The notes below the pieces were generated by a model that worked only from the letters and a program-made list of their open reading frames with translations, did no database searches and was not told the origin of the DNA. Shown here in pieces: positions 10,275 to 57,454 of a stretch of 64,000 nucleotides of DNA. A program made the position numbers and the translations under genes. The first letter of the stretch is position 1. Every line of letters begins with the position of its first letter. The DNA comes from Basidiobolus meristosporus CBS 931.73 (Eukaryota > Basidiobolomycota > Basidiobolomycetes > Basidiobolales > Basidiobolaceae), in the NCBI GenBank assembly GCA_002104905.1, contig MCFE01000138.1, positions 62,001 to 126,000 of the forward strand, read 5' to 3'.

Positions 10275-10315
10275 CTTGAGGGTAGTTTCTTCTTTCTTCA
10301 GGAGGGAGGTTTCTG

Positions 10316-10334
10316 GTTATCACTGATACCAATG
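10316..10334 (-). other. Gypsy primer binding site
   Basis: On the minus strand TGGTATCAGTGATAACC follows the LTR end ATAACA. TGGTATCA is the classical sequence complementary to the 3' end of initiator tRNA-Met. This fixes the element's orientation and its 5' boundary. Confidence 0.65.
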
Positions 10335-25623: not shown

Positions 25624-25982
25624 ATTAAAATTGATGGATGATCGTATGGAGGCGGTTTGAATTGATTTGGCGCCATCTGCGTTATTTATCTGATTTTTAA
25701 CACATTATGGTTAAATCTCCATCAATTGCCATGTATCCCATCATTATGTTGCAAAAATCATCCGCAAACAATGCCTTGGTACTTTTATTGATGCTTTAAT
25801 CATAGGTCTATAATCAAATAGGAAATCTGCGATTGATGTGATCTGATCCGTGTCAACGCGATCCGAGATGCATCATGCATAATATATGGAAAATTCAACT
25901 ATCACTTTAGTTTTCATATATATTTCATATAAGACCAGGTTGATGCCAATATACTGCTGTATAAGTATCCAAATCCGTTGCT

Positions 25983-32018: not shown

Positions 32019-34251
32019 TTAACTGATTACCCACGCATTGGGGCTGCTTAGCTTCTTAATGCCATAGGCATAGGTGTCTCCATGTGCACATTTGTCCTCA
32101 GTGTTTTCCAACTCTTTCTGGCTGCCCTTCATGTGCCAACTCATCACATCCATGATGTACTTGAAGGTAATACTCTTGATGAGATTGGGATATGGTAGTA
32201 CCTGCAACTTGACTTGTCTTCCTAGCTCCCTGCACATCTGCTCTATAGGAAACTCCCAAAAGGTGAAGCAAGGCCCAATATTCTCCACACACTGTGCAAG
32301 ATGGAGTAGAGAATGGATACAGTAGTGGCAGAGATCTACATGTTCAGCTTTATGTTTGTAGTATAGCCACTCAAATCCCATCACAAGCTCCTCACACCAC
32401 AGCTGTAGATGCGTCAAGTTGGCATTGGTGATCTGCTTCTGGATAAATATTCCTACAATGTCCACATATGACTCCCAATGCTTCCAATGTACTCTTGGTA
32501 GGAATAGCTTCAGATCACCACTTGAATAAATACATATCCAGATCATCCAGTCTTTGCATTTGTATTGTTGCATATGCGTATGAATATTAATTGTAGCCCG
32601 TGAGAAGTACTTAGGGTAGCGGATACTCTGTAATATCTTGCCAATTTTTTCAAATTTCTCCGGTATCTCAAAGGGCTCATTTAGCTTGCAATGCCCCATG
32701 TACAACTTGGTCATCAGTATAGGGATATTATTGAAAAGCAAATGCATTGCTCCTAGTGGAAAGCTTTTGCTCCAACAGATACCCTCTATCTTAAGTATCT
32801 CTGGTTTCCAATTGATACCATATTCTGGCCAATGGCTTATAGCTTGCCAACTTTGCTGCAATTGCATGCTTACTTCTGTACGTTCTCTCTGTGGAAAGAT
32901 GATGTTCTTAGTGCTGGTGTTTGGGTAATAATAATGTGTGTGAGTTCTGGAGTAAATCCCCTGGATCTCACACATTTGACAGCAATACCATCCATTGTGC
33001 CTGGAAAAACCTGCTATCTTGCTGATGGCTGGGGTATCTCCAATGCAGATAATAATATGCACTTTTACATGATGGCCATTCACCATTATCCTGCTGGAAA
33101 GCATACAAAATACATTAAGCAATGGATACAGGTAGCTATCTGGGTTGGATGGTGATTTAGGCCCAGATACCAGTGAGACTACCATCAGATTATTGCTCTG
33201 ATACTGTAAGATGGGTGGCAGATTCAGATTGACAAGAATCAGTGGCCAGTAGGATTTGCTGGATGAGTACTTGCTTAATGAGAATCCTTCCAGTGCTAAA
33301 GCAAAGGCATGGTCATACATACCTTCAAAGTAGCCCTTGCTTCTTAGCTGTTTGTAATGTTTGCCATTGAATATACTGGATATGTTTGCGCATGATTGAT
33401 ACTGAGTGTGGTGCTGTATAGCTTTGCAATATTTGTTGGGCTGCATCAGCTTCCTCAGACGGGGTATGACTGGAATATACCCGGAGTGTGAACAATGTTT
33501 TCCCTCAATGGTGGTGGATTCCTGACAATTTGGACATGTTGCAATGGTAGCATTTTTGGATATGAATGCCATGCAACTGTTAACACATGCTGGAATTAGG
33601 ACAGTCTCTGGATCATATGTTGCCAGCAGCATGACGGTTGTCCACTTGTACCATGTACATGGTAAGTTGCATCCTGTTATGATTTTGGCAAGAAGCAGTA
33701 ATAATTCTCAAAGCCCCCATTACTGATATTAGTGAAAACGCACTACTTCTCTAGCCACAACATCACATCATTCACCAGTAAATGAATTACTGGGCTCACT
33801 TGGCTCCATAAAGTATCCTTGGCATTTGTCTCAATGGGTGTTGTCTCATCGCATATAGGGATTTGACCGGGCTCATACATGGTACTGTTGTTAGGGGAGA
33901 TAGGCTCAAAATCCATCAGGGAACCTTCTTTGTCAGAGCTATCACTCTGCATGCCATATTCAGAAGGCTGAGGTGAGCCTAAAGGTGTCACAAACTCACC
34001 TGACTCAGTTTGCACAAGTTGACAAAGATGGCCAGGTGCCAATATAGAAGTATCACTGGCTGGCAAGATAATGTTGGTACAGTAGTGACCAATGAATGGT
34101 CAAATATGACTTAGGTGGCAAAACACTGGTGGTGATCATTGTAATACTTCCTATGCTGTCTGCATGCTTCATGGCTGAGAGGCTTGCCACAATAGCCACA
34201 TGGTCTTTTTTCTCTTCTCTTACGGCATTGAGTCAAAGTAGTCTTGTCCAT
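32019..34251 (-). pseudogene. Tnp2-family transposase, copy A, N-terminus damaged
   Basis: The ATG at 34251 opens a short N-terminal domain with C-x2-C...H (CGYCGKPLSHEACRQHRKYY), as in fungal Tnp2 proteins. A TAA at 34111-34113, a frame change near 34060 and a TAG near 33743 break the next part (33743-34066, acidic, with ESGEFVTPLG). From 33632 to 32019 the core is open for 537 codons: CPNCQES, FEGMYDHAFALALEGFSL, GPKSPSNPDSYLYPLL, GDTPAISKIAGFSRHNG followed by a CQMC pair, then KWHWES-like and LHLAQCVENIGP segments. Tnp2 moves CACTA elements by cut and paste. The core frame does not begin with ATG. One stop may reflect a short intron, but copy B argues for real lesions. Confidence 0.85.
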
Positions 34252-38931: not shown

Positions 38932-39303
38932 ATGGCTGTTACAGAATCTCTTCAGTGCTTCGTTATCATATGCTTTAATACAAAATTCAGCAATGCCAAC
39001 AATGAACCATTAAAATCATGTGCACCAACATACTATGAACTAAAGTCCCCAGACGCCTATCGATTGCCAGACAACGCTCACACAAATTCTGCGCAGAACA
39101 CTGAGACACTTTCCAACCAGAATCAGTACGACCAGGTGCAGCAAGTGGATCAAACATTGTACCAACCAACTGCGCCGACATTTGTGCAATCGTTTACTCC
39201 CGACGAGGATGACACTCATGACTCGAGTGACGACGACGATCAACCATCGTGTAAACGTTGTCAACGACGCTACTGTAGACGTGGATACAGAGGCGGCTAT
39301 TGA
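38932..39303 (+). pseudogene. C-type secreted-protein gene, 5'-truncated (module 1, first C)
   Basis: From codon 26 or so it matches the intact C gene at 46291: TYYELKSPDAY, SNQNQYDQVQQVDQTLYQP, SFTPDEDDTHDSSDDDDQPSC, then a basic R/G-rich tail ending GGY. The first 25 codons are unrelated to the usual signal peptide, so the promoter and export signal were probably lost at a duplication breakpoint. A start from the ATG at 38932 would give a cytosolic 123-residue protein. The C-x2-C near the end (CKRC) is shared with the member at 43266-43652 but not with the other C genes, marking a sub-type. Confidence 0.65.
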
Positions 39304-40051
39304 TATGAATAAGTTTAATAAATAAGATAATGTAATATATAACCGACATCACTCCAGTTTCTGACAATTGACACTAGGAAAAGTCACAAAAGAGACATGA
39401 CCACAGGGATGGGTGGAACAATGGCGAGTATGAACAGATGTTGAAGTAAGGGAAAGAGCCGATCAAGCGCCAATTTGCACAATTACAATAGGGATGCATA
39501 TTAGTTATGTGCTGGTAATGGTAGTGAGCAATAGTTGGGCTTTGGTATTTTCTCACTCTGCTGATACCAATAAGTATGAGTCAAAAGTTCCAGATTATTG
39601 GACTTGACACGCACCGAATTCTCCTTACATTATGATGGATTCTACCCTCTATAATAGCTGATTCTAGCTTGGAATGGCGATACACTCAAGGAGACCCAAT
39701 TTCCATATTGACTAAACCCATAGAAAACTTATTGAATAAGCTACCCATTACCTTCCAGCAGTACTTCAAGACGTTTCTCACCCCTCTCCTGGATTAGTCG
39801 ATGGACTTTGGGTCATCAGAGGGAAGTGCGGAAATTGGCATGGTGATGAGTTTGTCAAATACCCTTGTTTTCATGATGGTAACGACTATATTTCTGTTAT
39901 CACGTAAAAGGCGAAAAACAAAATGAATAATGGGACTTTATTGGATTTGGGCTCAAGTGCAGTCGGTGTGTCATTGAGTGTCTTCCATGGGCTCAGTATA
40001 CTGTGAGTCCTGATCAGCACAGTCATCGCCACATTGAACATCTTCCATGGG

Positions 40052-40549
40052 CTATGTGTACTGTGTATCTTGGTCAGAGCATCCTTCAACGCATTGGGTG
40101 TCTACTACTGGTGTGGAGTATGTCTCATCTTGTGCAGGCTGAACCATAACAATGGGGTAACCAGAGCCATCTTCGGAGTGTTCAGCACCCTTCTGTTTGG
40201 CGTACTCGGATGCGCTGGCTGAGCCTTCTACTTCGAGACTAGGGCCTGCTTGAAACTGAACATCGAGAATCTTGTCACTGTTGGCGTTGGCAGTGTTCAG
40301 ATTGTCATGCTTTCTGGTCACGGTGGTGAACACCTGACGCAACAATGGCACTTGGACGTTTAGCGTTTCAACAGAGGGCTGAGCCTGGGCTTGCTGGTAG
40401 CAGTTGCTTGCTTGGTCCGAGCATGAATACCTGCGATAACGGACTCTTCTATGCTCACGGTTGCATGATTCGGAGCATGGGACTGGAGCAGAAATGGTGG
40501 CTTGAAGTGAAGCAAGGCCCAAGATCAATGATACAATAAATGTACGCAT
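40052..40549 (-). CDS. A-type secreted protein, 165 aa (module 1)
   Basis: Unrecognised family. A signal peptide (MRTFIVSLILGLASLQATIS, cut after the following A) leads to a mature protein with cysteines spaced C-x3-C-x13-C-x6-C-Y-Q, then a conserved middle (VPLLRQVFTTVTRKHDNLN, FQAGPSLEVEG, EYAKQKGAEHSED) and a C-terminal C-x3-C. The stop matches that of the downstream paralogue at 56583. However, the frame beyond the stop still encodes the acidic tail present in the module 2 copy, so either this copy gained a stop or copy 2 lost one. TATATAGCATGGGA lies about 42 bp upstream and is shared by all A genes. Lower-case evidence for function is absent; probably extracellular. Confidence 0.8.
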   Translation of the reverse strand: MRTFIVSLILGLASLQATISAPVPCSESCNREHRRVRYRRYSCSDQASNCYQQAQAQPSVETLNVQVPLLRQVFTTVTRKHDNLNTANANSDKILDVQFQAGPSLEVEGSASASEYAKQKGAEHSEDGSGYPIVMVQPAQDETYSTPVVDTQCVEGCSDQDTQYT

Positions 40550-40869
40550 CTTTGAGAACTACTGAGTTCATTGCTGAATTCACTCTGGAATATATAGCAT
40601 GGGAACCATCATAACACGGTTACTACATTGATGGTAGCAATAGTTAGTTAACTTTGATCAGATCTTAAATTAGCATTCCCTCTACCATCATCGACTCAAT
40701 CGCATTGATATCGCGTGGTTTCCATGATTACAGTACGATAAATACACCAATATATACACATATGCTTTTGATAATATTTCACCTGTAGTAGGGTAATTCA
40801 CGAATCACGGCTGATGATGTTTCATATTAATATAGGGTGACCAAATGAAATGTTTATTTAATCAATGTA

Positions 40870-41412
40870 TCAATTCCCACTGAAATATCTGATCTTGAAG
40901 TACTTATGTGCCGACCTCTTGTACTTCTTCTGGCCTCCGCCATAGCTATGGGCGGCTGGCTGGGTGATGATGATCCGGGGCTGTTGCTGCTTAGGCTGAT
41001 AGAGGGTCTGGTCGATAACCTGCGCTTGGTCAAACTGATTGGAGTTTGACAGAGCATCAGCATCACTGGATGAGTGAGCGTTCACTCTGTCCAACAATGC
41101 CTTTCTTGGCTGCATGTCGGCTATATTGAAGTTAGGCATGTTGTAGGATGACTCTGGCTGAGTTGAAGTGTCATCCATTGAGTCTTCACCTTCGCCTTCA
41201 TCTTCACCCCCATTCTCACCCATATAGTCATCACCCTCGTCCTGTTCCGGCTGATAGTCATCTGCAGGCGATTGAGTTTCTTGGTAGCAAGGACTTACTT
41301 GCTCCCCGCACAAACTGTCACCATAGCTAACCTGAGAAGAGGTATCTTCTGTGGCAGGGAATGCATGGATAGAAGCAAGGTACACTGCGAGTAAAGTCAG
41401 AGTAAGCTGCAT
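40870..41412 (-). CDS. B-type secreted protein, 180 aa (module 1)
   Basis: Unrecognised family. The start is followed by a signal peptide (MQLTLTLLAVYLASIHAFP), C-x6-C-Y-Q near residue 36, a strongly acidic stretch (DEGDDYMGENGGEDEGEGED), the conserved ALLDRVNAHSSSDADALSN block, and the N/Q-rich motif SNQFDQAQVIDQTLYQP. The end is basic and aromatic (KKYKRSAHKYFKIRYFSGN), with a KR pair that a Kex2-like protease could cut. It follows the A gene on the same strand after 320 bp, the same spacing order seen in modules 2 and 3. A TTTATAG box is about 40 bp upstream. Role unknown; likely secreted. Confidence 0.85.
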   Translation of the reverse strand: MQLTLTLLAVYLASIHAFPATEDTSSQVSYGDSLCGEQVSPCYQETQSPADDYQPEQDEGDDYMGENGGEDEGEGEDSMDDTSTQPESSYNMPNFNIADMQPRKALLDRVNAHSSSDADALSNSNQFDQAQVIDQTLYQPKQQQPRIIITQPAAHSYGGGQKKYKRSAHKYFKIRYFSGN

Positions 41413-42350
41413 TTTGATGAATAGCGTAAAACCAGTCGTAAGCTCACTTTATAGTGGTAGTTGGCATAGTCTACTATACTACACCCTATATCTGACTCAC
41501 TTGAGGCCATGAATTCACATGCTATGTCCTGCTTCTGTTGCCCATCAACTAACGACTTGTGAAGATATGAGCTCACAAAGATAGACAAAGGTAGTCCCTT
41601 AATCAACCAATGGTGTTTATTTTGTTCTATTACAATATAGTGTTTCTCCAGTTGTAGGACGTTCATCCTTGGCCCTATTAGTCGGTGATCATTGATTCAA
41701 ACAACCATTTAGATATTGGCATGGTTTAGTTATTAGCAATCAAGTTAGATTAGCTTTAAGAACAAATGGTATGGATAATCGAGATTTATTGAATTAAGTG
41801 CGGTTGTCGGTACATTGAGTGTCTTCCATAACGTCAGCATATGCCAGCAAAGTGATGGCGACTTGAGGTGGTTGATGCAATGCATGATGCTAAATCGTAA
41901 ATCTAGCTCAGTATACTACCAAATGATGACTGGTAAAATATCAATTCATTCATAATCCCAAAACACTCACTAAGATTGCTACAGGTTACTATATAACAAG
42001 AGTAGCTTAGCGCCCTTCGACAATGAAATCAAGAACTACATAAGAACGAAGCCATTCCTGTGTGCTCACCTCAAGCCATTCCTGTGTGCTCACATTTTGG
42101 TTTGTCCCTTCACTACCGCATATGTCATTCCAAAGTGGTATAGCAAGCCCAGAATTGAAGAGGAATGTACTGAAGTGATTGGTCGCCTGGATTACGGTTT
42201 CAATCAACCCCTATTCACTGATGATTAACTTTACTCACCTTTGCTTCATAATTTAGTAAACTGGGTTTGGTAGCTGATGATCGTTGATGAATCTAGCAAA
42301 CCATACATAAAAGCAGCTGCTTGCCTTCCAGTGTGTCATCAAAAGCCAAT

Positions 42351-42757
42351 ATGCAGCGCACTTTCCGCATTCTATCCGCCTTTGTATTCCTATTCGGTGT
42401 ATCTTATGCATCGCCCATTGCAACGTATGACAACTAGCAAATAGACCAATGGACTTTGGTGGCAATGCCGACAATGGACCATTAGTGTCATATGCACCAA
42501 CATACTGTCAACTAGAGTACCCAAACGCCTATCCATTGTTGGACAACGCTCAGACGAATTCCGCACAGAACGCTCAGGCACTTTCCAACCAGAATCAATA
42601 TGAGCAAGTGCAGCAAGTAGATCAGACATTGTACCAACCATCTGCATCGACATATGTGCAATCATTTACTCCCGATGAGGATGACACTCAAGACTCGAGT
42701 GACGACGACGATCAGCCATCGTGTGAACGTAGACGTAGATACAGAGGCGGCTTTTGA
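42351..42757 (+). pseudogene. C-type secreted-protein gene, nonsense and frameshift (module 1, second C)
   Basis: The ATG at 42351 gives a normal signal peptide (MQRTFRILSAFVFLFGVSYA) and mature start SPIATYDN, then TAG where the intact gene at 46291 has CAA. A frameshift follows within 30 bp, and the rest of the gene is open from 42449 to 42757 (PTYCQLEYPNAYPLLDN, SNQNQYEQVQQVDQTLYQP, ERRRRYRGGF). An internal ATG at 42449 could start a leaderless protein, but loss of export makes a pseudogene more likely. A CATACATAAAAG box lies about 50 bp upstream. Confidence 0.75.
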
Positions 42758-42784
42758 CTCAATCGGATCATGTAAACACTAGTT

Positions 42785-42868
42785 TGGCATTCATAATAAA
42801 TCCTATCGTATATGGCATTCATAATAAATCCTATCGTATATGGCATTCATAATAAATCCTATAAAATA
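42785..42868 (+). repeat. 28-bp triplicate containing polyadenylation signals
   Basis: Three tandem 28-bp units, TGGCATTCATAATAAATCCT plus eight more bases, lie just after the C gene stop. Each carries AATAAA. The intact C gene at 46291 has only one such unit downstream. Confidence 0.9.
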
Positions 42869-43265
42869 ATCGCTACTTCTGTAAACTATCCAACACACAC
42901 ATTTCTTCTGCAAACAAGATTACACCAACTGACATCAGAGGAGACGTGACCACAGGGATGTGTGGAATGAGCATCACGAACATTTTGGTTTTGTTCTCAC
43001 CAATTTGCGAACAATAATGATTAAACTACTAAAATGGAAGTGACAAGCAATCTACATAAATGAATGATGGTATAGGTAATGAAGTGCGTAGATCGATGAT
43101 ACATCGGTTTAATTGGCTGTGAATTGTTTATATACATATTTTTGTGGTTTGATGATTGGCCACATAGAATAGCTATCAACTTACTCAGCTGGGCTTCGGT
43201 TGCTGATGATTGCAGATAAACACAAAAGCAACTTTTTGCATCCCAGTGTGTAACTAAGTGCCAAT

Positions 43266-43652
43266 ATGCAACGTAATTTCCGCATTTTATCCACGCATTT
43301 TATCCACCTTGGTACTCCTATTCGGAGTATCCTATGCATCGCCTATTGCTACATATGGCAACCAATAGGTAGACCTGGGTGTCCAAGTGGACTATGAGAC
43401 TGAACCATCGATGCCATATGCGCCGACAGGTTACCAGCTGGAGTCCCCGATCACCTATCCCTTGTTGGACAATGTTGAAACTAATTTCGTACAGAATGCT
43501 CGGGCACTTTCCAACCATCTACGTCGACATATGTGCAATCATTTACCCCAGACGAGGATGAAAACCAAGACTTGGGTAACCACGATGATCAGCCATCGTG
43601 TAGACGTTGTCAACGACGCCACCGTAGACGTAGATACAGAGACAGCTATTGA
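43266..43652 (+). pseudogene. C-type secreted-protein gene, decayed (module 2, first C)
   Basis: Starts with a signal-peptide-like region slightly lengthened by a small repeat (CATTTTATCCA occurs twice), reaches SPIATYGNQ, then TAG. Further on, TGYQLESPITYPLLDN and ALSN are readable, but the whole DQTLYQP motif has been deleted (about 60 bp) with a frame change. The tail (CRRCQRRHRRRRYRD) shares the C-x2-C of the 38932 gene. Clearly inactive. Confidence 0.8.
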
Positions 43653-44318
43653 TGAAAACAGGTTGTTGGTATTTCTACATTTTATAACTGTTGTGATACC
43701 AGCATAATAAATGGGGTAATGTATCATATAATCGATGTCACACCAGTTTCCCTATTCATGTAGACTATCAAGTACACACAATTATCGTGCAAATAAGCTT
43801 TCAAATATGAACACTGAAAAAAATGTTACATAAGAGATGTGCCTACAGGGATGGGTGGAATAACGGCGAGTATCAACAGAGGTTGAAGTAAGGGAAAGTG
43901 CCGATCAAGCGCTAGTTTGCATAATTATAACACGAATCGCTCGTCTGTGGTGCATATAATATGTGCTCTCAGGATACCATGTTTTCTGGTAATGGTAGTG
44001 AGTAGTAGTTGGAATTCTTGAGATAGCGATACACTCTAGGATGCCCGATCTCCATATTGACTAAGCCCTCGTTGAGCTTATTAAATAAGCCACTCACTAC
44101 CTTCAAGCAGTACTTCAAGACGTTTCTTACCCTTCTCCTGAATTGGTGACTGGACTTCGGATCATCAGAGCGAAGTGTGGAAATAGGCTTGGTTTTAAGT
44201 TTGTCAAACGCTCTTTGCTCCCATGCTGTTAATGGCTATATTTCTGCTCACATATGAGGCGAAAAATAAAATGAATAATGGAACTTTATTGGATTTGGGC
44301 TCAAGTGCAGTCGTTGGT

Positions 44319-44897
44319 TCATTGAGTGTCTTCCATGGGCTCAGTATACTGTGAGTCCTGATTAGCACAGTCATCACCACATTGAGCATCTTTCATGGGC
44401 TCAGTGTACTGTGTATCTTGGTCAAAGCATCCTTCGATGCATTGGTTGTCCACTACTGGTGTGGAGTATGTCTCATCTTGTGCAGGCTGAACCATAACAA
44501 TGGGGTAACCAGAGCCATCTTCGGAGTGTTCAGCACCCTTCTGTTTGGCATACTCGGATGCGCTGGCTGAGCCTTCTACTTCGAGGCTAGGGCCTGCTTG
44601 AAACTGAGCATTGAGACTCTTGTCATTGTTGGCGTTGGCAGTGTTCAGATTGTCATGCTTTCTGGTCACGGTGGTGAACACCTGACGCAACAATGGCACT
44701 TGGACGTTTGGCGTTTCAACAGTGGGCTGAACCTGGACTTACGGGTAGCAGTTGCTTGCTTGGTTGGAGCATGAATACCTGCGATAACGGACTCTTCTAT
44801 GCTCACGGTTGCATGATTCGGAGCATGGGACTGGGGCAGCAATGATGGCTTGAAGAGAGGCAAGGCCCAAGATCAATGATACAATGAATGAACGCAT
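44319..44897 (-). pseudogene. A-type secreted-protein gene with internal TAA (module 2)
   Basis: From the ATG at 44897 (MRSFIVSLILGLASLQAIIA) the frame is 192 codons long with one stop, TAA at 44739-44741 (codon 53), where the module 1 copy has CAA. All else is conserved, including LLRQVFTTVTRKHDNLN and AKQKGAEHSED. The C-terminus is 26 residues longer than in the 40052 and 56583 genes and repeats the unit QYTEPMED-Q-C-x3-C twice. It is 86-90% similar to module 1 by eye. TATATAGCATGGGA is retained about 42 bp upstream. Confidence 0.8.
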
Positions 44898-45229
44898 ATT
44901 TGAGAACTACTGAGTCCATTGCCAAGTACACTCGGGAATATATAGCATGGGAGCCATTATAACATGGTTGCAACATTGATGGTAGCAATAGTTAGTTAAC
45001 TTTGATGAACTCACGCTTTATCAGATTGAAAATCAGCATTCTCTCTAATATCGTCGACTCCATCGCATTGATATTGCGTAGTCTACATGATCAATGTACG
45101 ATAAATAAACCGATACATACACCAATAAATACATATATACTTATGATATTTCAGCCGTAGTATGGTGATTCACGAATCACGGCTGATGATGTTTCATATT
45201 GATTTAAGGTGGCCAAATGGCATGTGTAT

Positions 45230-45575
45230 TTATTCAATGTATCTGTTCTTGAAGTACTTATGCGCAGATCTCTTGTACTTCTGGCATCCACCACGGCTAC
45301 GGGTGGCTGGCTGGATGATGATGATCTAGGGGCTGTTGCTGCTCAGGCTGATAGAGGGTTTGGTCGACTACCTGCGCTTGGTCAAACTGATTAGAGTTCG
45401 ACAGGGCATCAGCATCACTGGATGAGTGAGCGCTCACTCTATCCAACAAGGCCTGTCTTGGCTGCATGTCGGCTATATTGAAGTTGGGCATATTGTAGGA
45501 TGACTCTGGCTGAGTTGAAGTGTTATCCATTGAGTCCTGACCTTCGCCTTCATTGCCGCCCTCATTCACATCCAT
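45230..45575 (-). pseudogene. B-type secreted-protein gene, truncated (module 2)
   Basis: The signal peptide and cysteine region are gone: similarity to the 40870 gene starts in the acidic stretch and continues through SSYNMPNFNIADMQP, ALLDRVSAHSSSDADALSN and FDQAQVVDQTLYQP. A 1-bp change then shifts the frame, and the basic tail (KYKRSAHKYFK) is present only in another frame. Dead copy, in the expected position after the A gene. Confidence 0.8.
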
Positions 45576-46290
45576 ATAGTTGTGATAATCTTATAATGAA
45601 TATACATTGATACCCTTGACTATCACTACTCCTATGACTCTATAATTTCAAAGCAACACAACACTCGGTTAATGTTACGACTTGAAGATTTATCTGGTGC
45701 AATAGAGGCCAATTGGGTATAGGCGATGTATGAAGCCTGTGAAGTGATGGTGAGTTGCGTTTTTGCTAAACCTACCCAAGGTGGTTGATGCAATGCATAA
45801 TGCTAAATCGTAAATCAGGCTCAGTATACTATTGACTGATGGCTGGTGAAGATGTTAATTCATTCGTAATCCCATAACACTCACAAAGATTGCTACAGGT
45901 TGCTATATAACCAGAGTAGCTTAGCATTCTAAAACTATGAAATCAAGAAGACCGAAGCCATTCCTGTGTGCTCACCTCAAGCCATGAGTCACTTTCGCTT
46001 GTCCCTTTGCTACCGCATATGTCATTCCAAAGTGGTATAGTAAGACCAGTATTGAAGAGGATTGTTTATTTATTTTTCTTGATGTACTAACGTGATTGGT
46101 CGCCTGGATTACGGTGTTAATCAACTCTTACTCACTGATCATTGCAATGAAAGTGAAATGGTGATTAACTTTACTCACCTTTGCTTCATAATTTAGTAAA
46201 CGGGGTTTGGTAGCTGATGCGCGCTGATGAATCTAGCAAAGCATACATAAAGGCAACTGTTTGCCTTTCAGTGTGGCATCACAAGCCAAC

Positions 46291-46695
46291 ATGCAACGCA
46301 CTTTCCGCGTTCTATCATCCTTGGTATTCCTATTCGGTGCATCTTATGCATCGCCCATTGCAACCTATGACAACCAACAAGTAGACCAGGGCATCCCAGT
46401 GGACTTCGACAATGAGCCATTAATGTCATACACACCAACATACTATCAACTAGAGTCTCCAGACGACTATCCATTGTTGGACAACGCTCAGACTCATTCT
46501 GCACAGAACGCTGAGGCGCTTTCCAACCAGAATCAATATGAGCAAGTGCAGCAAGTCGATCAGACATTGTACCAACCATCTGCACCGACATATGTGCCAT
46601 TGTTTACTCCCGACGAGGATGACACTCAAGACTCAAGCGACAACGACGATCAGCCATCGTGTGAACGTAGACGTGGATACAGAGGCGGCTTTTGA
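46291..46695 (+). CDS. C-type secreted protein, 134 aa, intact (module 2, second C)
   Basis: Unrecognised family; the only complete C gene. The ATG at 46291 is chosen because it starts a good signal peptide (MQRTFRVLSSLVFLFGASYA) and is conserved in the two C pseudogenes; the frame is open further upstream but without ATG. The mature protein has PTYYQLESPDDYPLLDN, the motif ALSNQNQYEQVQQVDQTLYQP, an acidic block (PDEDDTQDSSDNDDQ), a single C, and an arginine-rich end (ERRRGYRGGF). The last half reads as acid then base, suggesting an unstructured, surface-active protein. CATACATAAAGG lies about 50 bp upstream; AATAAA follows the stop by 40 bp. Likely secreted. Confidence 0.88.
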   Translation: MQRTFRVLSSLVFLFGASYASPIATYDNQQVDQGIPVDFDNEPLMSYTPTYYQLESPDDYPLLDNAQTHSAQNAEALSNQNQYEQVQQVDQTLYQPSAPTYVPLFTPDEDDTQDSSDNDDQPSCERRRGYRGGF

Positions 46696-47150
46696 CTCAA
46701 TCCGATCATGTAAACACTTGTTTGGCATTCATAATAAATCCCATCATAAAATCGCTATTTCTGTAAGCTATCCAACATATACAAACAAGATTACACCAAC
46801 TGATATCAAGAAGAAACAGCGTAGACGTGACCACATGACAAGCAATAAGAATACTTCTGTCAGGCATATTGGACGGCAAAACCTATATGCTCACAGCATC
46901 ATGAACATTCTTTTAATGACTCCTCACATGATTCATTTTCGCTTTGTTCCCACAAAACTACGAATAATAACAAATAAACTACTAAAATGGAATGGTGGTG
47001 AGCAATCGTGGTGAGCAATCCTGGTGAGCAATCGTGGTGAGCAATAGATGGAAGATTGTTGATCAATGGTACATAGGTTCAATTGGCTGGGGATTGTTTG
47101 ATGATTGGGCACCTACAAGAGCTATCAACATAAGGAAAACTTTACTTAAT

Positions 47151-47440
47151 GAAAACCAAGACTCGAATGAAGATGACAATCAGACATCATGTTACCGTAG
47201 ACGTAGATACAGAGACAGCTAATGATATGAACAGGCCTAATACTATTGTGATCCCACTACAATAAATAGGTCAATGGATCATGTAGTCATTACTACTCCT
47301 ATTCATGTAAGCAATTAGCAAGTAGAGCAGTCTCCGTACAATGCCATATATGCCGAACTACTGGAGTCCATTGCTTTACAGCTCTCAGGAACTTGACCAG
47401 ATATTGTATCAACTATCTGCGCCAGCTGACTTATCCATTT
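47151..47440 (+). pseudogene. Two C-type gene remnants (module 3 relics)
   Basis: At 47151-47222 a tail ENQDSNEDDNQTSCYRRRRYRDS ends in TAA, like the end of the first-C type. At about 47340-47436 a further internally deleted C fragment reads MPYMPNYWSPLLYSSQELDQ, then LYQLSAPA. Together with the A fragment to the right they look like the leftovers of another module. Confidence 0.6.
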
Positions 47441-47624
47441 TGACTACTCAGAAAGGTACTACTGGCTGATATTGCGGGACTGCTTTATTCTGCTCTAACC
47501 TTACTCTTGTTCCTGTGCTGGCATGGATCATACTTCTGCTATTACATATTAAGCAAGCAATATATAATCAACGCAAATCTAATGGCTTTAAGGTCATTCC
47601 CCAGACTCAATATAGTGCTCATTT

Positions 47625-47772
47625 TGTTTAGCACACTCATTGCCATATTGGGCATCTTCCATGGGCTCTGTGAACTGTGTATCTTGGTTAGAGCATCCAT
47701 CAATATAACAGGTGTCTTCATCTGCTATGGAGTATGTCCTATATTGCACAGGCTGATCCATAACAATGAGGA
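47625..47772 (-). pseudogene. A-type gene remnant (C-terminal)
   Basis: About 150 bp matches the end of the A genes in antisense, including the CATCTTCCATGGGCTC, GTGTATCTTGGT and GGAGTATGTC words from the acidic tail. No start, no signal peptide, no open frame. Confidence 0.7.
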
Positions 47773-50035
47773 AATATTTGTCATACCTGAATGAACTGTC
47801 TTTACCTTCTTACTCAGGCCAGGGCCTGCCTGGAACCTGACATCAGCTCTTCTGTCTATCCCCAAGAGTTAAAGGCTGGGATCTGTATCCTTAGGCTCAT
47901 AACTACCTACAATTGCCATATAAGTCTCTTATTTGTTGCAAACAACAATACTGCTCTCTATGCAGCCAAGATACATAGCCTCAGGCTGTGGCCTTCAGAG
48001 GTCTTCAGCCTGAGGCTTCAATATGTCTATAGTCTGCAAGCACAAACCTCAGTGACTAAAAGATCCCAATGGAGACCCTTTTATGCTGAAATCTAACTTC
48101 AGGCTTCCATCCACCAAGGGCCTGAATGTGAGGCTTTTACTTGCAAAAGTAGTTATTGGAGGTGCCTGTCCAATGATAGCCTTGGCTTGATGTCTGTATT
48201 TGCAAAAGCCATCAGTCTAGCATTCCTCTCCATAGGTGTCTCAACTTGAGGCACTCATTTATCAAGTACTGCAGCTCACTGATTACATTAGAAAAAGCCT
48301 TGACATTGAGCTTGTAATGGCCAAACCTGTATTTGTGGCTCTCTCAGACTAAAATCAAGGCCTGAAGCTCTAATCATCTGAAACCTGAGTTCAAGGCCTT
48401 GCAGAAACAAGCCTTGACTTAATGTCCTTGGAGGTTGACAATCTGAAACCAAGGCTCTTTCCAAATGGATATCTTGGCATGAGACTCACACTACCCACTA
48501 CTCTGAGTTGCTACCCCTAAATGTTGAAACACTCATGCCATCTTGTTGCCTGACTGAAAGTCTTCAAGCCTTTCAATGGTGCAATGATTTGCAATCTACT
48601 CAAAACAAATTTCTCCCTCAACCAAGACCTTTCAGCTAATACCATCCCTAGTAGACATCCCAGTAGTTTTGCTGCAAGGAAGAATTACAAGTGGTACTGT
48701 GATGCTATTTTTTTACCTAACAATGCATGAGATTTGCATATTCTTTTGGGTGAGACAATGTGGCCATAAATTAAGCACATAGAAGTGCTTATCACAGCAA
48801 TGGGGCTTGAGGCTATGAAGCATATATCAAGACCCCAACTTGAAGACAACAGTGATATAAGAAGCTGTAAATATTTTAAAGCTAAGTGTACCAATATATA
48901 AGATGCCATCAAGTATCTGCCATGTCATAGTCTTGCAGCAAGTGTACTCTTAGATTATCAGGACCCAAAGCCAGGTGATTTATATGCAACCTGCTCTTTA
49001 TGCAATATACAGGAGCCAGGCAAGTAGGTGAATGTCAGTTTATAATTGATACACTAAGGTAATATATTGGCAATGCCATAAACTCTCAGTCACTAAATGG
49101 CAGGGATGTTAAACCAAAGGCAATAGACCTCTCAAGAGCATGTTGATAGTCAGCCAGGGAGCCATGAGTACAAAGCTGGAAGACATCAAGTATCAGGAAG
49201 GGCACTACCCAAGCAGTAGCTGCATTGTGGTACTCATAAAGAAATGGGCAAAGAACCATATTCAGAATTAATGATACTGGCAGCAGTGAAGTTATGAGAG
49301 AATAGTTAGCTAGGCCAAATCATCAAGGTTCTAGTTATTGCTCAGTGTATCCATACAAGTAGACATCCATAACAGGGATGGTTATGGACCACTAAGAGGA
49401 GTGAATAAACAAATAATAGTCCAACCTTAAATACATGAGCGCCACTGCAAAGAATTCCTGCTTATGTACTGTACAACTGAGTGATTGTGGCTTTATAGTG
49501 CCATACTGTGCCACACAGTGCAGTATGCTCCCAGGTTCTAGTATGCTTAGTCTTTTCCAAGAGATTCTTTGTCATTGGGTGAAGGAAGTGAAGGTAGCTA
49601 GCATTCAGAACTTTGACAATTAAACTCCACTTGTGGATGTCAGGCATGTTTTAGGGCCAAGTTTGCAACCTACTTTGACCATGTAAAAAGTAATTTGTTG
49701 CTGCAGGAGGATCCAATCCGTGTTTGCCACCAGGACCCCACATTGATGCCACTGCAATACTAGCAAGTACTACTTGTGCTGCTCTCAATTGAGTTATGGA
49801 GGCGTTGTAATAGCATTGCTGACTAGACTTCTGATGTGGTACAGAACTTGGCAGTGCTTTGCAGTGGTTACAGTCATAATACCACAAACATGTGGCTTGT
49901 CAGTGTAGTACTTATAAACTTACTGTATGAGTTGCATTGCTGGTAAAATATGCCTTTCACAAATGTACATCTAGCTGCCATCACTTGGCAAAGAGTATCT
50001 GCTTAATATCTCAAAATACTCCCAGACTCCTGGCT
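47773..50035. other. Non-coding stretch with a strong hairpin
   Basis: No gene recognised. Between 47900 and 48600 words like GAGGCTT and CCTTGGCTT recur irregularly, suggesting an old, eroded repeat. At 47978-48016 an 11-bp perfect inverted repeat GCCTCAGGCTG flanks a 17-nt loop. Confidence 0.5.
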
Positions 50036-51560
50036 AATAAACTTCCTTTCCCTACTCCATACTGGTCCTCTGTATGAGTGTAATGCCATTCCTTTTTGTG
50101 TAAATTGCTTTCAAAAGGTATTCAAGTTGGCTTGCATGCAAAAGTTACCTGACATACTTTGATATAGTTGTCTTCAGAAGTGATACTTTGTTGTTGTGCC
50201 AAGCCAGGCCTTGCCTTATTTGACTTACTACATGTTGTGCATCAACATTTAAAACTTAGCCAATTTTACTCCGTCTGAAAATCTAGTACCCTGACTGATT
50301 TTCCCTAACCCAAACATAACAAATTCCAGTTACAGTCTATTTTATCCCACCTCAGAATCTATTTTTAGCTATCACACCTGATCTATTTTCAAATGGTCAT
50401 TATGTTATCAACTTATCTGCCAAGCCTTCCCAGGTGATTAGTCATCTGAGATCTATCCAACCACTGTGCAGTTGCCAAGACATCAGTTGATTGTTGATGT
50501 AATTTTCATTTATCTTATGCACCTATGAACACCCAAATTGATTTCAATCAATCCAGTCCCTTGGCGCTTACTAATTCAACTTGATCAGAAAAGTATAAAT
50601 AAAGTTTACTGAACCTTTTGGTTTAGTGTGTGTCTCAACAAAATTAAGATTCTGTCTCAGCAAATATAAGAATCCAACAATTCCATTCTAGTCTCTATCC
50701 AAGCCTAGTATATCTAGCACTCCAAAGAACACCAAGCCTAGCCTGCCTAGCAAACAAATATCATTGTCTTTATAGCCAACCCAGCTATATCCAAGACCAA
50801 TATTGGATTGGAATCTTTCTGCTAATATTTTGCCACTCTCTGACAATTCTAAGATTCCGCACTTAATTGTCCCTTTGGTTCAGTTAAACCATTCAAGAGT
50901 TTATTACACTTTCTCTTGGATACAACACTACACATTTACTGAGGCTATTGTGCATTTCAATGCCAAAGGGATATCTGCTTACTTCTTGTCCACTGTACTT
51001 GATGTTCCTCCATCAGTCACTCTGTGGATTGCAGATGTACTTGAATGTAGTATTTCTCATGGGACTTGCATATGGCAGAACCTGTAATTTTTTTTGCTTC
51101 CTATCTCCTTACATATCCACACCTTAGGAGACTCTAGGCAAACATACATCTGTGTTCTCTAAGCATCTAGTAGAAAGTAGAGTAACCATACATCAGAGAT
51201 TTATATATTCATACTTATGCTTGCAGCAAAACCTCCCAGGTCTTGTTGAAAGCTCTTTACATAAAATCAATAAATGAATCAAATTACCATTGGTTGGCAG
51301 CTTTTTGGCACTTTCTCCTACACTGTCAACATATGATGCTCAATGCTTCCAATGAACCCAGAGTAAAGTAGCTTTAAATGGCTAGTGAGATGAATATGTA
51401 TGTAGCATCTCCAAAAGAGTTAAGTGCCTTGTGGATAATAATGGACTTTGCCACACATATATGTATCTTAACTGAAATATTCTGTAGCTAGTAGTAAGTA
51501 TTAGATGTACCTACTGCTCTGACATTTATAGCAATTAGATAGAACATGTTTGGCCAGAAC
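50036..51560 (-). pseudogene. Tnp2 transposase remnant, copy E, split by a solo LTR
   Basis: Sequence left of 50232 (GACATACTTTGATATAGTTG) and right of 50928 (TTCAATGCCAAAGGG onward) aligns to 28840-29170 and 32040-32640, the 3' part of tnp2 in the same orientation. The block with CAATGCTTCCAATG near 51340 and CAACATATGA near 51330 is a clear anchor. It is heavily decayed. Confidence 0.7.
50233..50927 (-). mobile_element. Solo LTR, copia-type family, 695 bp, 5-bp target duplication
   Basis: TG...CA ends (TGTTGTGCATC to GATACAACA on the plus strand) with CTACA on each side (50228-50232 and 50928-50932). The interrupted Tnp2 sequence has an unbroken paralogue at about 28920-28935 that reads GATTACCTACATATTGGGG, i.e. 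the empty site with one CTACA. Confidence 0.9.
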
Positions 51561-51860
51561 TGCATCCAGTACCTCAGTACCTGAGCTTCAACTCAAGGGA
51601 CAGTCACTGAGAGTACACAAGGATACAAGTGTGCCCCTGTAACAAGCAACAAAAGAGGCATTATCATCAGGTGTTTAACTTTGCTTGTCACAAAGCTTAG
51701 TTGAATGCAATCTAGCAATCAGGTATATGACTAAAGACAAAATATCACCTAGAGATGCTCTCTCAGCTCAGTACCAAAGATATAATCATAATATAGTAAT
51801 ATTGCTCTATTAGTAGCCTACAACATGGTATCAAGCAACTCTACTGATAAAGTAAGTCAG

Positions 51861-52556
51861 TGTTGTGTTTAAGAGAGAGGTGTGATAAGACTCTTGAATG
51901 GTTTAACCAAACCTAAGTGACAACTAAGTGCAGAATCTTAGAATTGTCATAGAGTGGTGGAAATATTAGCAGAGAAGTTCTGGTCTGATATTGGTCTTGT
52001 ATATAGCTGGGTTTGGCTATAAAGACAACAGAGTTGGTTTGCTATGCAGGCTAGGCTTGGTGTTCTTGAAAGTGCTAGATACGCTAGGCTTGGGTAGAAA
52101 CTTGCACAGATTTGTTGAATTCTTGATTTTGCTGAGACACAATCTTAAATTTGTTGGGACACAAACTAAACCAAAATGTGCAGTAAGATTTGATTATATT
52201 TTTCTGATCAAGCTGAAATAGTAAGTGAAAAGAGACTGGACTAGTTGATATCAGTATGGATGTTGACAGGTGCATAAAATAAATGAAAATTGCATCATTG
52301 ATCAGCTGATGTCTTGGCAACTGCTGAGTTAGATAGATCTCAGAAGACTAATCACTTGGAAAGGCTTAGTAGATCAATTGAGGACACAATGTCCACAAGA
52401 AAATTGATCAGGTGTGACAGCTAAAAATAGATTCTGAGAAGTGATAAAATAAACCATAACAGGGATTAGTTATGCTTGGGTTAGGGAAAATTGGTTAGGG
52501 TCCTAGATTTTCTAATAAGGTAAAATTGGCTAAGTTTTAATTGTTGATGCACAGCA
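51861..52556 (+). mobile_element. Solo LTR, copia-type family, 696 bp, 5-bp target duplication
   Basis: Same family as 50233-50927 in opposite orientation, starting TGTTGTGTTTAAGAG and ending GATGCACAGCA. GTCAG flanks both ends (51856-51860 and 52557-52561). There is no internal coding region. Confidence 0.9.
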
Positions 52557-52561
52557 GTCAG

Positions 52562-55145
52562 TACTATAGAGTACCTGAGATATTGCAGAGGCACTGATGC
52601 ATTGACCATTGGCTTCCTTTGTTTCCAGCCATGCACTCTGAATGTATCCTCTATCTCATTCACTAGCCCAGGTCAAGTACATCATTGACTAAGTGTAACA
52701 AATTAAACAGTGGAAGTATAAAGCTGGTGTGCAATACTTAAACTGGTAATATGGTATTACTTGCATGCACTCAACATATCTTTGGCACAGCTGTATGCAT
52801 TACTCTCTGAGCAGAGGGAGCAAAGTGCAGCTACAGCAAAAGGAGCACTACTTTGCTGTTGTAATTCACTGATATGCAGCTATAATCACCCTATTATGCT
52901 TGCATTGAGGTATATAGGGTGACCTTGTTGGCAGTAAGTGTATACATATGGAGGTCATTAGGGGTCTGTTGACCAGCATAAGCACTTAGTGTAAGCCCAT
53001 TTGGTATTGCTCTTAAACTCCAGTACAGCAATTTGTTCACAATGAAAAATAGCTACCAGAGAGCTTAGTTGGATAATGTACACAATTGTTGGTGCCTTTT
53101 GCATCCTTCTCATCCTAGTTATAGTATTAATGCTTTGAGAAAAAGAACAAGAAAGGACCATCTGAGTACCATAACATTTCAGCTGAGTACAAAGTCTCAC
53201 TTAACTTACAGTGGTCACCATGTAAGATACTAGCTATTTGGCAGACATACTTTTCAGGTGGAAACAAAACCAACTAGAATTAATACCAAATCCAATCATC
53301 AGCTACTCTCTACTTGCTACTATAGTTGCAGCTAGAAATCTAAAGGAAAAACACCAGCAGAATGCCAGCAAAATATCATTGGAATGCCAGTAGAATACCG
53401 GCTGATTATCAGATGAGTTCCAGGTCTGGGATATCTCATAGCAATGTGACATCTATGCTTTCTTTACACCTAGGTTGTTATTTACAAATCTTTGAGAGCT
53501 CTAGCCATTGATCTTGTATAGAGTCACTCAGCAAAAGTATCAGATATCTAAGACATGAAATATCTGAGAGTTGACATAACAGCTGCAAGCTTTGCACACA
53601 TGTTCTTAGAACCATCATCATTGAATTCTTCATGTTTGCATTGCCAAGACCATGTTGAAGCAAAGATAATACTCTTACGTTTGATGAATGATTAGGAGCA
53701 GACCACAAGTTTTACTTGTTCTCCCATTCACTTCCAGTATCTCTGAGACTCTTGAAATATTACACTCTATAATCTGCACAACCACTCTTATTTTCATCAA
53801 ATTTGCTTATGTTCAACTATTTGTGTCCTCACAAGAGCCCAAGTACTTCTTCAGCCTACACACCGGTGCTTTTACTTTGCAAGTTATATCACTACACCTT
53901 TGACATCTTGAGTTTGTTGCTTAGTTTAATTCCTAGACTTTTGAATAGTGTTGGTTTTGCCATTGTTGCCTTGCCTGAAGTCAAACAAGTCATCTTATTA
54001 GCCATATAGATGCTGTTGTTCAAGGCTGCACAACTGAGTACTATTGGAGTGACCAATGTGAGCTACCAAAGGTTCACTATGTGTTCCTCAGGTGCCCAAG
54101 CCAACTAAGCAGTATGAAGTGCTGTGATAGCAGCACTGAGCACAGTTGTCTGGTTAATAGAACTTCTCCATTATATGGATTGACAAGTACTCATCATTGT
54201 CAGAATTAAAGTCATTGTCCTAGTCAAAGCACATCATTTATTCAATCAGGCCATCAGTCTATACTTCAAAGCTGGAACTTTCAAGTTGTTCAAGTCTCTA
54301 AAGTGTTGCGTCAGCTGTGGGCTAAGTATTGGCATTGTAGGTGCAGTGACAAGCTGAGATGATAGATCCAGATTGAGGATGCAATCACTGCAACGGTGGG
54401 AAGAAAACTGAAAGCAATGTCAGTACATCTGACACGGCAGGTTTGTTCATTCACTTCAATGAAGCCTTGTTGGATGAGGAATAGATGTACGGTAACACTA
54501 CGCATCCTCAATATTTCAGTGTCTGCGTTCATATGCTAGGCAAACTCCATACATTCTGATGAATCATCGTGTAGATCTTCTATGCTACTCCGTCATAAGA
54601 TGAGCTATAGAAAATTGAGTTGGTAATCTCCAGTATAACGGTGTCAAACACTTTTCTTCCGGATTGCGCATTTTCTTTGGAGCATCTACTTACCCATTGG
54701 CCATAGTTATTGAGATGGGATTGTGGTATACAGCATTTTATGCAAAGTTGTGTGCCCACTTAAACATTCAGTTATGTGATCCCACTCTTGATTTAGCCTG
54801 AGTGTTGCTATTTCTTAAAAATGAACCTTATGCCTAGCTGGTGATTCTCGTAAGTGAGACAGTGCATACACGAAATAGTAATCAGCATTTAATGTCAACC
54901 AAATGCTTTATAGTATAAAGCTAGAAGTAGATCTGAAAAAAGAGAAAGGCGACGTTGGCGATAGTGATGCTTAGATGTTCTTGGCGCAACAGTTCGAGTC
55001 CTTAGTACGTGTCTGATATTCGGAGCCACTACAACATGACTTAAGCGTTAGTAAGAGTGGCCGAATGATACTTATATGCTGCCCTTGTATATTGTTGATG
55101 TGACACCACTTTGTGCTGCATATCCAATACTATACGAGATAATCC
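52562..55145. other. Intergenic, nothing recognised
   Basis: A few ORFs of 60-80 codons on both strands without motifs, repeats or paralogues. Base composition is more even from about 54300 onward, marking the switch from repeat-rich to gene-bearing sequence. Confidence 0.4.
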
Positions 55146-55699: not shown

Positions 55700-56130
55700 C
55701 AGGGATGATTTAAACAGTCTAGTTCATCCGGTATAAAGTAGCACTTTTCTAGGATTGGATTCATTACTAAGCCGTATCTCTTACATTTGTGCATCGATAA
55801 CAACAGTGTCGTGAACGACCATTACTCACTACTCAGTATCATCTAGACAATTGCTCCGTTTACAACTGGTTTATTGACCATTACATAGGAAAAGATCTAT
55901 GTACTTCGTCTTTGAGGCATCCATTGAATTTCAGTTTAATTTAGTCTGCCAAACCCGGGATTTTGTATTTATTGATCGTAAATTCAATTGCCATATCTTC
56001 ATTATGAAAAGACACTGATGGGTAACGACAAAACAATAGGTAAAGATACTTTATGCTGCTTGCTTCGAGTGATGGTAGTACTTCAAGAATATTTCCTTTC
56101 AAACTCTTTCGTATGGACTAAGTACAAGCT
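55700..56130. other. Intergenic, nothing recognised
   Basis: No gene, repeat or RNA seen between the cysteine-rich gene and the tRNA. Confidence 0.4.
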
Positions 56131-56212
56131 GGTGAGGTGGCCGAGTGGTCTAAGGCGCTGCGTTCAGGTCGCAGTCTCTTCGGAGGCGTGGGTTCGAACC
56201 CCACCCTCATCA
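56131..56212 (+). tRNA. tRNA-Leu, anticodon CAG
   Basis: An 82-nt cloverleaf: acceptor GGTGAGG pairs with CCTCATC, D arm GGCCGAGTGGTCTAAGGC, anticodon stem CTGCG/CGCAG with loop TTCAGGT giving CAG (56165-56167), a long variable arm (TCTCTTCGGAGGC) as in class II tRNAs, and T arm GTGGG-TTCGAAC-CCCAC. No intron and no encoded CCA. The long variable arm and the G after the anticodon fit leucine, reading CUG codons. Confidence 0.97.
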
Positions 56213-56582
56213 TCTATTTTACTCTTAGCTTGCACAAAAATGATAAGAGGAAATATCACAATGCTAACAGTCACTGAGCAGTCTGTCAATCTCGAATCTT
56301 TGTGTTACCTAAGTCAATCCGGTAACCCTGCCAGACACACTCTCTAATATCAAACTTTTCGGTGGAGGGCAGCATCACTAAAGACTGAGGGTGAGTATGT
56401 TAGTACGTAAGCGAAAATCTAATATTAATGCCCGCAGCTCTGATCATGATACAGGTGTGTGCAAGTAAAAAGCTAATCACAAGTAACAACAAGTATAAGA
56501 ATGTCATTTGGATTTTATTGATTGAGAATTTTCAGTTGTAGCGTGGTGATGACTACCTACATCTTCAGCTCATGTCATCGCA

Positions 56583-57080
56583 CTAATTGTATTGAACGTT
56601 TTGCTCTGGACAATCTTCTACGCATTGCATCTCTGCCACAGGGGTTGTGTATTGTATATCTTGGGTGGGCTGCATCAGGACGTAGGGAGAGAAAGAACTA
56701 TCTTCCAAGTGTTCCGCTCCCTTTTGCTTAGCATATTCTAATGCATTGGCCCTACCCTCCAGTTCGAGACTGGGCCCTGCTTGATACTTGACATTGAAGC
56801 CTTTGTTGCTGTTGGCGTTAGCAATGTTCAGGTTATCGTGCTTTCTGGTCACCGTGGTGAAAACCTGGCGCAATAACGGGGATTCGACATTCGTCGTCTT
56901 AACGACAGGCAAAACTCGAGCGTTTTGGTAGCAACCGCTCGCATACTGTGCACATGGTAAGCTGCGATAATGAACCCCTCTATACTCGCGAGTACATGGA
57001 GAAGAACAGCCGATTGGGGCAGCAACGGCAACTTGAAGAGCGGCAAGGCTTAGAATCACTGCTACGGTAGTAGAGCGCAT
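56583..57080 (-). CDS. A-type secreted protein, 165 aa, intact (separate A-B pair)
   Basis: Paralogue of the 40052 gene. Signal peptide MRSTTVAVILSLAALQVAVA, then cysteines C-x3-C-x13-C-x6-C-Y-Q at the same spacing, the conserved VFTTVTRKHDNLNIANANSN and EYAKQKGAEHLED blocks, and C-x3-C near the end. It stops exactly where the 40052 gene stops. Substitutions against the module 1 copy are spread along the mature part, with the middle block the most constant, so it is an older duplicate. TATATAGCATGGGA is conserved about 42 bp upstream. It is 375 bp upstream of the B gene's 3' end. Confidence 0.9.
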   Translation of the reverse strand: MRSTTVAVILSLAALQVAVAAPIGCSSPCTREYRGVHYRSLPCAQYASGCYQNARVLPVVKTTNVESPLLRQVFTTVTRKHDNLNIANANSNKGFNVKYQAGPSLELEGRANALEYAKQKGAEHLEDSSFSPYVLMQPTQDIQYTTPVAEMQCVEDCPEQNVQYN

Positions 57081-57454
57081 GCTGAAGAATAGCTGAGAAA
57101 TAAGCTAGTTGCATAGGCCGCTATATAGCATGGGAGGCTATATAATAAGGTTAAGTCGAGGGCATAAAGTGAGTCTTGTTAGATTGCGCATGTTTTCCAT
57201 TCTGTTATTGACTTTATCGAGGAAGCCTGTAACATATAAAACACATGCACTGGAATGACAGCCTCTGTATATATATATATGGTTCTATCACCGCTGCCCA
57301 TACTTCTCTTCAATACTCACAATGACATTGTGTACAACGATAAGTGCCACTGTTTCTGTGTGTGCATATCAGAAAATTCTTGAGTACTTGTACATCATCA
57401 GCATACCGAGTAATATGTTGCTCATTTTATTTCGTAAGTTTACTTTTACTAGAC

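Follow-up and report, generated by a model that had tools for sequence, protein, structure and literature searches.

The subtelomeric FLO/EPA-type adhesins of yeasts, large, lectin-like proteins with glycosylphosphatidylinositol (GPI) anchors, form secreted or surface families at chromosome ends that are subject to dosage and turnover. Animal two-component polyacid/polybase bioadhesives consist of co-secreted disordered proteins with opposite charge patterns. Here we describe a locus with likenesses to both in Basidiobolus, an early-diverging fungus that inhabits the guts of amphibians and reptiles and is an occasional cause of human infection. Within a stretch of 64,000 bases of B. meristosporus CBS 931.73 (positions 62001-126000 of contig C356, hereafter the window), three types of genes for small, apparently secreted proteins, termed A, B and C, recur as a module close to a chromosome end. 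They resemble the yeast adhesins in location, turnover and possibly dosage, whereas no matching Pfam domain was found in A, B or C. We know of no homology to the animal bioadhesives, the likeness resting on charge and predicted disorder.

Other described systems come close in different respects. According to PMC5676039, the msg genes of Pneumocystis are, like A, B and C, fungal and subtelomeric, comprise several related families side by side in uniform orientation, and include pseudogenes (28 of 113) and one excreted family. The same text has all msg genes facing the contig end, the presumed telomere, whereas here A and B face away from it and C toward it. It also describes five of six msg families as GPI-anchored glycoproteins and msg-I as expressed from a single site, whereas the A, B and C proteins are small and not recognizably related to these, and we noticed no expression site. 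The lack of relatedness to msg proteins is judged indirectly, from the absence of msg homologues from 41, 41 and 40 profile matches and of any convincing Pfam match. Kex2-processed repeat proteins, defined in PMC7329392 by at least three repeats of at least eight residues between dibasic sites, are secreted, abundant in B. meristosporus CBS 931.73 and mostly genus-unique. That source also presents Rep1 products as water-repellents needed for aerial hyphae. Such repeat proteins carry an endoplasmic reticulum signal peptide, as A, B and C appear to (82 of 93 proteins by hydropathy, not SignalP), but their defining repeats are missing from our families (0 of 106 proteins by a simplified test).

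Subtelomeric C, A and B modules

The B. meristosporus assembly comprises 89,006,234 bases (89.0 megabases) in 1311 contigs, C356 spanning 157,485 bases. Window members were placed by tblastn with mapped relatives as queries (Table 1). From left to right they read C+ A- B- C+ (C2+) A- B- C+, where C2 is a second, more diverged C, followed by relics up to 47.8 kilobases (kb) and an A-B pair at 56.6-58.0 kb. Direct repeats of 300 nucleotides (nt) with 91-92% identity connect the window units at start-to-start spacings of ~3.5 to 4.4 kb, and relatives elsewhere in the genome comprise dozens of copies with E values of 1e-40 to 1e-118. Given these repeats, the strong matches elsewhere and the recurrence of this order and strand pattern on many contigs, the arrangement is far beyond chance. 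An earlier note on this DNA, made from the letters alone, had described the tandem C+ A- B- C+ arrangement, relics at 47151-47772 and a lone A-B pair at 56583-57979; tblastn mapping reproduced all three, resolving the relics into one of C and one of A. Its statement that every copy has a decayed member holds for both window modules and fails for the lone pair, in which both genes are intact. Its birth-and-death turnover is visible genome-wide as interleaved open, truncated and stop-bearing copies, and the A/B/C order that it took for a module is the same across the genome.

The window cluster is subtelomeric, which had not been recognized before. The right end of C356 consists of telomere repeat, with 31 TTAGGG in its last 300 bases. 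Among contigs carrying family members, telomere repeats occur at six of 14 examined right ends (C356, C136, C313, C114, C473 and C463, as opposed to C772, C1143, C517, C640, C169, C363, C474 and C511; in eight of the 14 the reading covered 30 bases) and at one of 42 left ends (C926); as the ends were chosen by family content, these counts say nothing on enrichment. On the seven telomere-anchored contigs, the nearest family member lies 178 base pairs (bp) to 27.5 kb from the contig end. Within 60 kb of these ends, mapped A and B genes point away from the telomere in 28 of 28 cases and C genes toward it in nine of nine, although rows on one contig are not independent, C356 and C926 contribute 26 of the 37, and three contigs give one to three rows only. 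Copies near telomere repeats on several ends and uniform polarity are also general traits of subtelomeric multigene families. Across the assembly, telomere repeats read forward 7428 times and in reverse 81 times, against 0 and 13 for a reversed-pattern control, an imbalance suggesting that the telomere sits at the right end of most telomeric contigs as written. Among open-licence PMC texts, we found no paper holding both ‘Basidiobolus’ and ‘subtelomeric’.

The modules appear to occupy two subtelomeric zones, one nearer the centromere with C, A, B units of ~3.5 to 4.4 kb, the other nearer the telomere with A-B pairs at intervals of ~6.5 to 12.5 kb. Twelve contigs have a C zone plus A or B genes more than 4 kb off, and on each the A/B-only zone lies on the telomere side as judged from polarity, the telomere itself being seen on that side for two of the 12 (C356 and C926). 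C136 provides an exception, with one B on the other side, nearer its right telomere. In the window, the A-B pair is embedded in DNA that recurs on at least 22 other contigs (Table 1), a lower bound obtained from a whole-genome DNA search in which 24 of 1071 candidates were scored. A mobile element carrying A-B was considered and rejected: we prefer subtelomeric duplication because the 48-62 kb region contains no transposase open reading frame (ORF) of at least 130 amino acids (aa) and the match edges vary. The tRNA-Leu (CAG) in this stretch may be multiplied along with it on other contigs. Moreover, a 41-nt segment at 54736-54776 is found on ~10 contigs at 93-100% identity, at the edges of longer matches, and may mark a recombination or insertion point.

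To gauge family size, genome searches with scoring of the best candidates reported at least 151 C, 150 B and 151 A matches. For the layout we used 122 of the 151 A matches, together with 109 of 150 for B and 75 of 151 for C, spread over 58 contigs. As family sizes these counts are lower bounds, and they include fragments and possible alleles; the rows left out lacked length or score or did not appear in the tables or, in the case of C, were for the most part cross-matches to B. By our length cut-offs, at least 84 A, 54 B and 36 C copies approach full length and contain no stop. A B gene lies within 1.2 kb of 83 of the 122 A rows, upstream on the same strand in 80, downstream in three and on the opposite strand in none, and each of the 75 mapped C rows has its nearest B on the other strand. 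The layout does not just reflect recent copying, since the order is also kept in arrays on C390, C926 and C1015, whose A proteins are 56-68% identical to window A. One layout is common to C851, C1026 and C517 and another to C390, C926 and C1015, so that some copies may be alleles or recent segmental copies; B. ranarum is at least diploid according to PMC3281927, a caution on allelic copies. Ploidy was rejected as the sole cause of copy number on the basis of the housekeeping domain PF04998, which has seven matches in the assembly, four of them near full length, compared with what we presume to be three paralogues. In B. ranarum, B genes form a run by locus tag (K7432_009542 to 009544 plus 009547). 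A diverged, methionine-rich B subfamily occupies C916:27001-37000, a contig with B copies in both orientations, on which the model P0001 contains the B core three times.

Cores, constraint and charge

Two sequence cores define the families. Core II, ALSNSNQFDQAQVIDQTLYQP and variants, is common to B and C (hhalign probability 98.7, E 1.8e-16) and distinct from core I, QVFTTVTRKHDNLNTANANSDK...VQFQAGPSLE, which is found in A. By our sequence patterns, 14 of 106 retrieved proteins contain both. Core I comes first in nine of these: P0014 and P0015 from B. meristosporus and P0037, P0039, P0075, P0076, P0077, P0101 and P0102 from B. ranarum. P0014 is one uninterrupted 394-codon frame (C566:88627-89685) that reads A then B, with B lacking its signal peptide. 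The B. ranarum proteins join core I either to a B-like core II and tail (P0037 and P0039) or to a C-like core II (P0075, P0076, P0077, P0101 and P0102), their tails being either B-like or C-like. The P0015 model may have been spliced across a copy that contains a stop. The remaining five (P0028-P0031 and P0052) have core II first and read B then A. These ‘fusions’ were not counted, since that is also the order of the genes in the genome and the models probably extend across neighboring genes; P0052 also keeps an apparent internal A signal peptide. With B and C sharing a core and A tied to both by natural two-core proteins, the superfamily suggested in the earlier note stands. A functional partnership of core I and core II is likely in view of their co-location, the natural fusions and the constraint, and the fusions in particular predict that A and B are partners.

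As far as these searches reach, the superfamily of putatively secreted small proteins seems confined to two Basidiobolus species. Profile searches of 5.8 billion proteins, as the earlier note had proposed, gave 41 B, 41 A and 40 C matches at E <=0.001 and no well-described family; they require common 5-residue words and scored the best 7995 (B) and 7991 (C) candidates, so distant relatives could be missed. All named matches come from B. meristosporus or B. ranarum, with P0095 being an ENA contig and P0090 the window's own C. Pfam yielded nothing above cut-off for five window proteins and ten homologues, and for 40 family members four weak single-member matches (best E 0.0017), none convincing. 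NCBIfam gave one weak match, far below cut-off, for seven proteins, and PDB searches with B alone and with A, B and C profiles reached a best E of 0.39. The UniRef labels ‘CBM1 domain’, ‘SCP domain’, ‘C2H2-type’ and ‘C3H1-type’ on P0014, P0029, P0047, P0060, P0094 and P0006 were discarded as lacking Pfam support. No description of the family was found in titles or abstracts of open-licence papers. These results agree with the earlier view of an unrecognized family, its named homologues all being uncharacterized Basidiobolus proteins.

Intact copies are under purifying selection that is strongest in the cores. The ratio of nonsynonymous to synonymous differences (pN/pS; Nei-Gojobori, pooled over non-independent pairs of intact genes) is 0.32 for A (22 genes), 0.32 for B (19 genes, about half of the pairs being near synonymous saturation) and 0.26 for C (eight genes). 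The lowest windows fall in core I of A (0.12-0.21), core II of B (0.08 and 0.15) and core II of C (0.11, preceded by a window at 0.31 that also lies in the core). Diversifying selection was not seen, every 20-codon window with a defined ratio remaining below 0.6 in these intact genes, of which C provides eight. Third-position G+C is 0.51, 0.53 and 0.46 for A, B and C versus 0.40 in intergenic DNA. A TATA-like box precedes 21 of 22 A genes by 47 bases (measured to the ATG), 15 of 19 B genes by 41 and seven of eight C genes by 45, counted in related copies and without a shuffled control. A common promoter motif was considered and rejected, as no motif of 8 bases or more recurs upstream in at least four of five representatives; the 7-mers in excess at 600 bp (seven versus 2.6 expected) are mostly AT-rich and weak.

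The proteins combine apparent secretion with patterned charge. A hydrophobic N-terminal stretch in 82 of 93 proteins of at least 120 aa (crude hydropathy test) supports the secretion proposed earlier. Charge was counted in 61 of 106 proteins (18 B, 26 C and 17 A), the others being short, two-core or pattern-less; C here denotes core II without the B tail pattern. Net charge before the core is positive in 17 of 17 A proteins and negative in 18 of 18 B and 26 of 26 C proteins. After the core it is negative in 16 of 17 A (one zero) and positive in 18 of 18 B, and the last 18 residues are positive in 19 of 26 C. AlphaFold predicted no stable or confident fold for either protein modeled, with mean predicted local distance difference test (pLDDT) scores of 45 for P0014 and 52 for P0002 of the B family.

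Features of the window

Coordinates of the family members and associated features are given in Table 1. The ATG at 38932 is not the homologous start of the leftmost C. The A at 40052-40549 ends ~27 residues short of P0042, the largest A cluster, and its homology extends to 39974.

Table 1 Family members and associated features placed in the 64,000-base window
Feature	Position	Strand	Basis
Type C, N-terminus (signal peptide) lost	38932-39303 (homology 38992-39300)	+	tblastn P0079 78%, residues 42-144
Type A, signal peptide and core I present	40052-40549	-	165-aa self match; 91% to P0042 over 1-192, one stop
Type B, intact, 180 aa; core II, acidic middle, basic tail	40870-41412	-	ORF and tblastn
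Type C, broken by stop and frame change after signal peptide region	42351-42757	+	tblastn frame 3 then frame 2
Second, more diverged C (C2), broken relic, stop and frame change	43294-43649	+	tblastn P0098, P0097, P0079
Type A, broken by one stop (TAA)	44319-44897	-	90% to P0042
Type B relic, N-terminus missing, frame change	45233-45581	-	tblastn
Type C, intact, 134 aa	46291-46695	+	ORF and tblastn
C tail relic	47148-47225	+	tblastn 47148-47219; repeat family D7 at 47149-47225
A relic, C-terminal half, one stop	47597-47839	-	tblastn; repeat family D4
Type A of telomere-side pair, intact	56583-57080	-	96% to P0043, full length
Type B of telomere-side pair, intact	57455-57979	-	99% to P0007, full length
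Duplicated subtelomeric DNA around A-B pair	53500-61000		matches of 1.7 to 5.4 kb, 92-98%, at least 22 other contigs
tRNA-Leu (CAG) inside duplicated stretch, adjoining A-B pair	56130-56214	+	ARAGORN, Rfam tRNA

Several other elements are present. A Ty3/gypsy-type retrotransposon at 6142-10316 (-) comprises several ORFs with protease, reverse transcriptase, RNase H and integrase domains. Two DDE_Tnp_4 transposase copies, one stop-split and one open, lie at 16555-17520 (+) and 24739-25704 (-); we take them to be Harbinger-like, and a second ORF type occurs near each (15.5-16.1 kb and 25.9-26.9 kb). A Transposase_21 (tnp2) ORF of 562 codons is located at 32019-33707 (-). Finally, a long imperfect inverted repeat at 50226-52563, with arms of ~556 nt that are 82-90% complementary in pieces around ~1.2 kb, resembles a fold-back element.

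Possible roles of the A, B and C proteins

We tentatively propose, as a plausible reading rather than a probable one, that A, B and C constitute a co-secreted, largely disordered and charge-complementary set that assembles outside the cell, with dosage and turnover provided by recombination at chromosome ends. The three proteins would be exported together as largely disordered partners, would associate through their opposite charges and Q/N-rich cores and would build up, outside the cell, a coat, matrix or adhesive that covers spores or hyphae. The chromosome-end position would let recombination multiply, homogenize and delete modules, resulting in high dosage and many relics. Whereas location, selection and fusions are observed, assembly and role are what we infer, with an extracellular material suggested by apparent secretion, predicted disorder, opposite charges and the lack of visible diversifying selection. 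The notion in the earlier note that the genes work together gains strength from the natural single-chain proteins.

A number of observations weigh against such a set. No 8-mer or 9-mer is present in at least four of five representative upstream regions of A, B and C, so that the sequence gives no support for co-regulation. The telomere-side zone is devoid of C, with A-B pairs standing alone, and the nearest B is more than 1.2 kb away for 29 of 122 A rows, while ten of 122 are on contigs without any B. Duplication has passed on most of this order, and the copies are related rather than independent trials. At the protein level, the A-B profile match is weak (63%, over the N-terminal cysteine region), and seven of the 26 proteins classed as C do not have positive last 18 residues. 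A second hydrophobic stretch after residue 30 in 22 of 93 proteins, which include several gene-model fusions and a group of diverged A proteins, means that some may be membrane-bound or wrong gene models. The low pLDDT may reflect shallow alignments (40 and 14 rows) instead of disorder, and 14 of 184 residues of the B model P0002 reach pLDDT 70. Possible Kex2 sites in the tails suggest that the proteins may not act at full length.

Alternatively, although we regard this as unlikely, the proteins could be effectors directed at a host or at microbes, or surface antigens, whose position at chromosome ends is maintained so that they can vary. Subtelomeric surface-protein families occur in other fungi and parasites, and the present families are apparently secreted, restricted to one genus, present in many copies including decayed ones, and subtelomeric with conserved polarity. 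The genus is also associated with amphibians and reptiles (PMC7466969 and PMC7913143). Against this reading, the 20-codon windows of intact genes described above show no diversifying selection, and neither a single expression site nor a common leader was noticed.

Distinctly less probable are cationic-peptide precursors, in which the acidic middle would neutralize a basic tail freed at a dibasic site. B fits this idea in part, as KYKR is followed by a tail such as SAHKYFKIRYFSGN and all 18 B proteins are negative before and positive after the core; C has an arginine-rich tail, and KYKR followed by S or A is found in 20 of 106 proteins. The dibasic site is nevertheless not conserved, being replaced by KYKKF in eight proteins, the charge order is reversed in A, and constraint in B is strongest in the core (pN/pS 0.08-0.15) rather than in the tail (0.22-0.26). 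More improbable still, A, B and C could be passenger genes with little or no function in duplicating subtelomeric DNA. Many decayed copies and stretches copied at 92-98% on at least 22 other contigs without a transposase ORF of at least 130 aa would fit. Against it stand the purifying selection seen in three gene types, the constant placement of the TATA-like box and the persistence of the genes in two species. Lastly, although 43 Kex2-processed repeat proteins were counted in B. meristosporus CBS 931.73, the most of any strain surveyed in PMC7329392, membership of A, B and C among them or among ustiloxin-type peptide precursors is largely refuted and hardly credible, as by a simplified test none of 106 proteins has even two similar segments.

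For the co-secreted, charge-complementary set, a more specific version, which we consider doubtful, would have the chromosome ends organized around a three-component secreted material, with polarized C-A-B modules lying toward the centromere and A-B pairs toward the telomere. Its charge-complementary disordered partners would derive from two mobile cores that were split or fused between species and would be kept for dosage, not antigenic variation. If true, this would represent a multi-component counterpart of single-gene chromosome-end surface families. What the analysis adds to the earlier note is the position at a chromosome end, the division into two zones, the existence of split and fused architectures, and the family size; it also reveals a large, previously undescribed and apparently secreted family in a fungal phylum in which functional studies are scarce. 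The system may offer a natural setting in which to test how splitting, fusing and subtelomeric exchange shape the evolution of multi-component modules.

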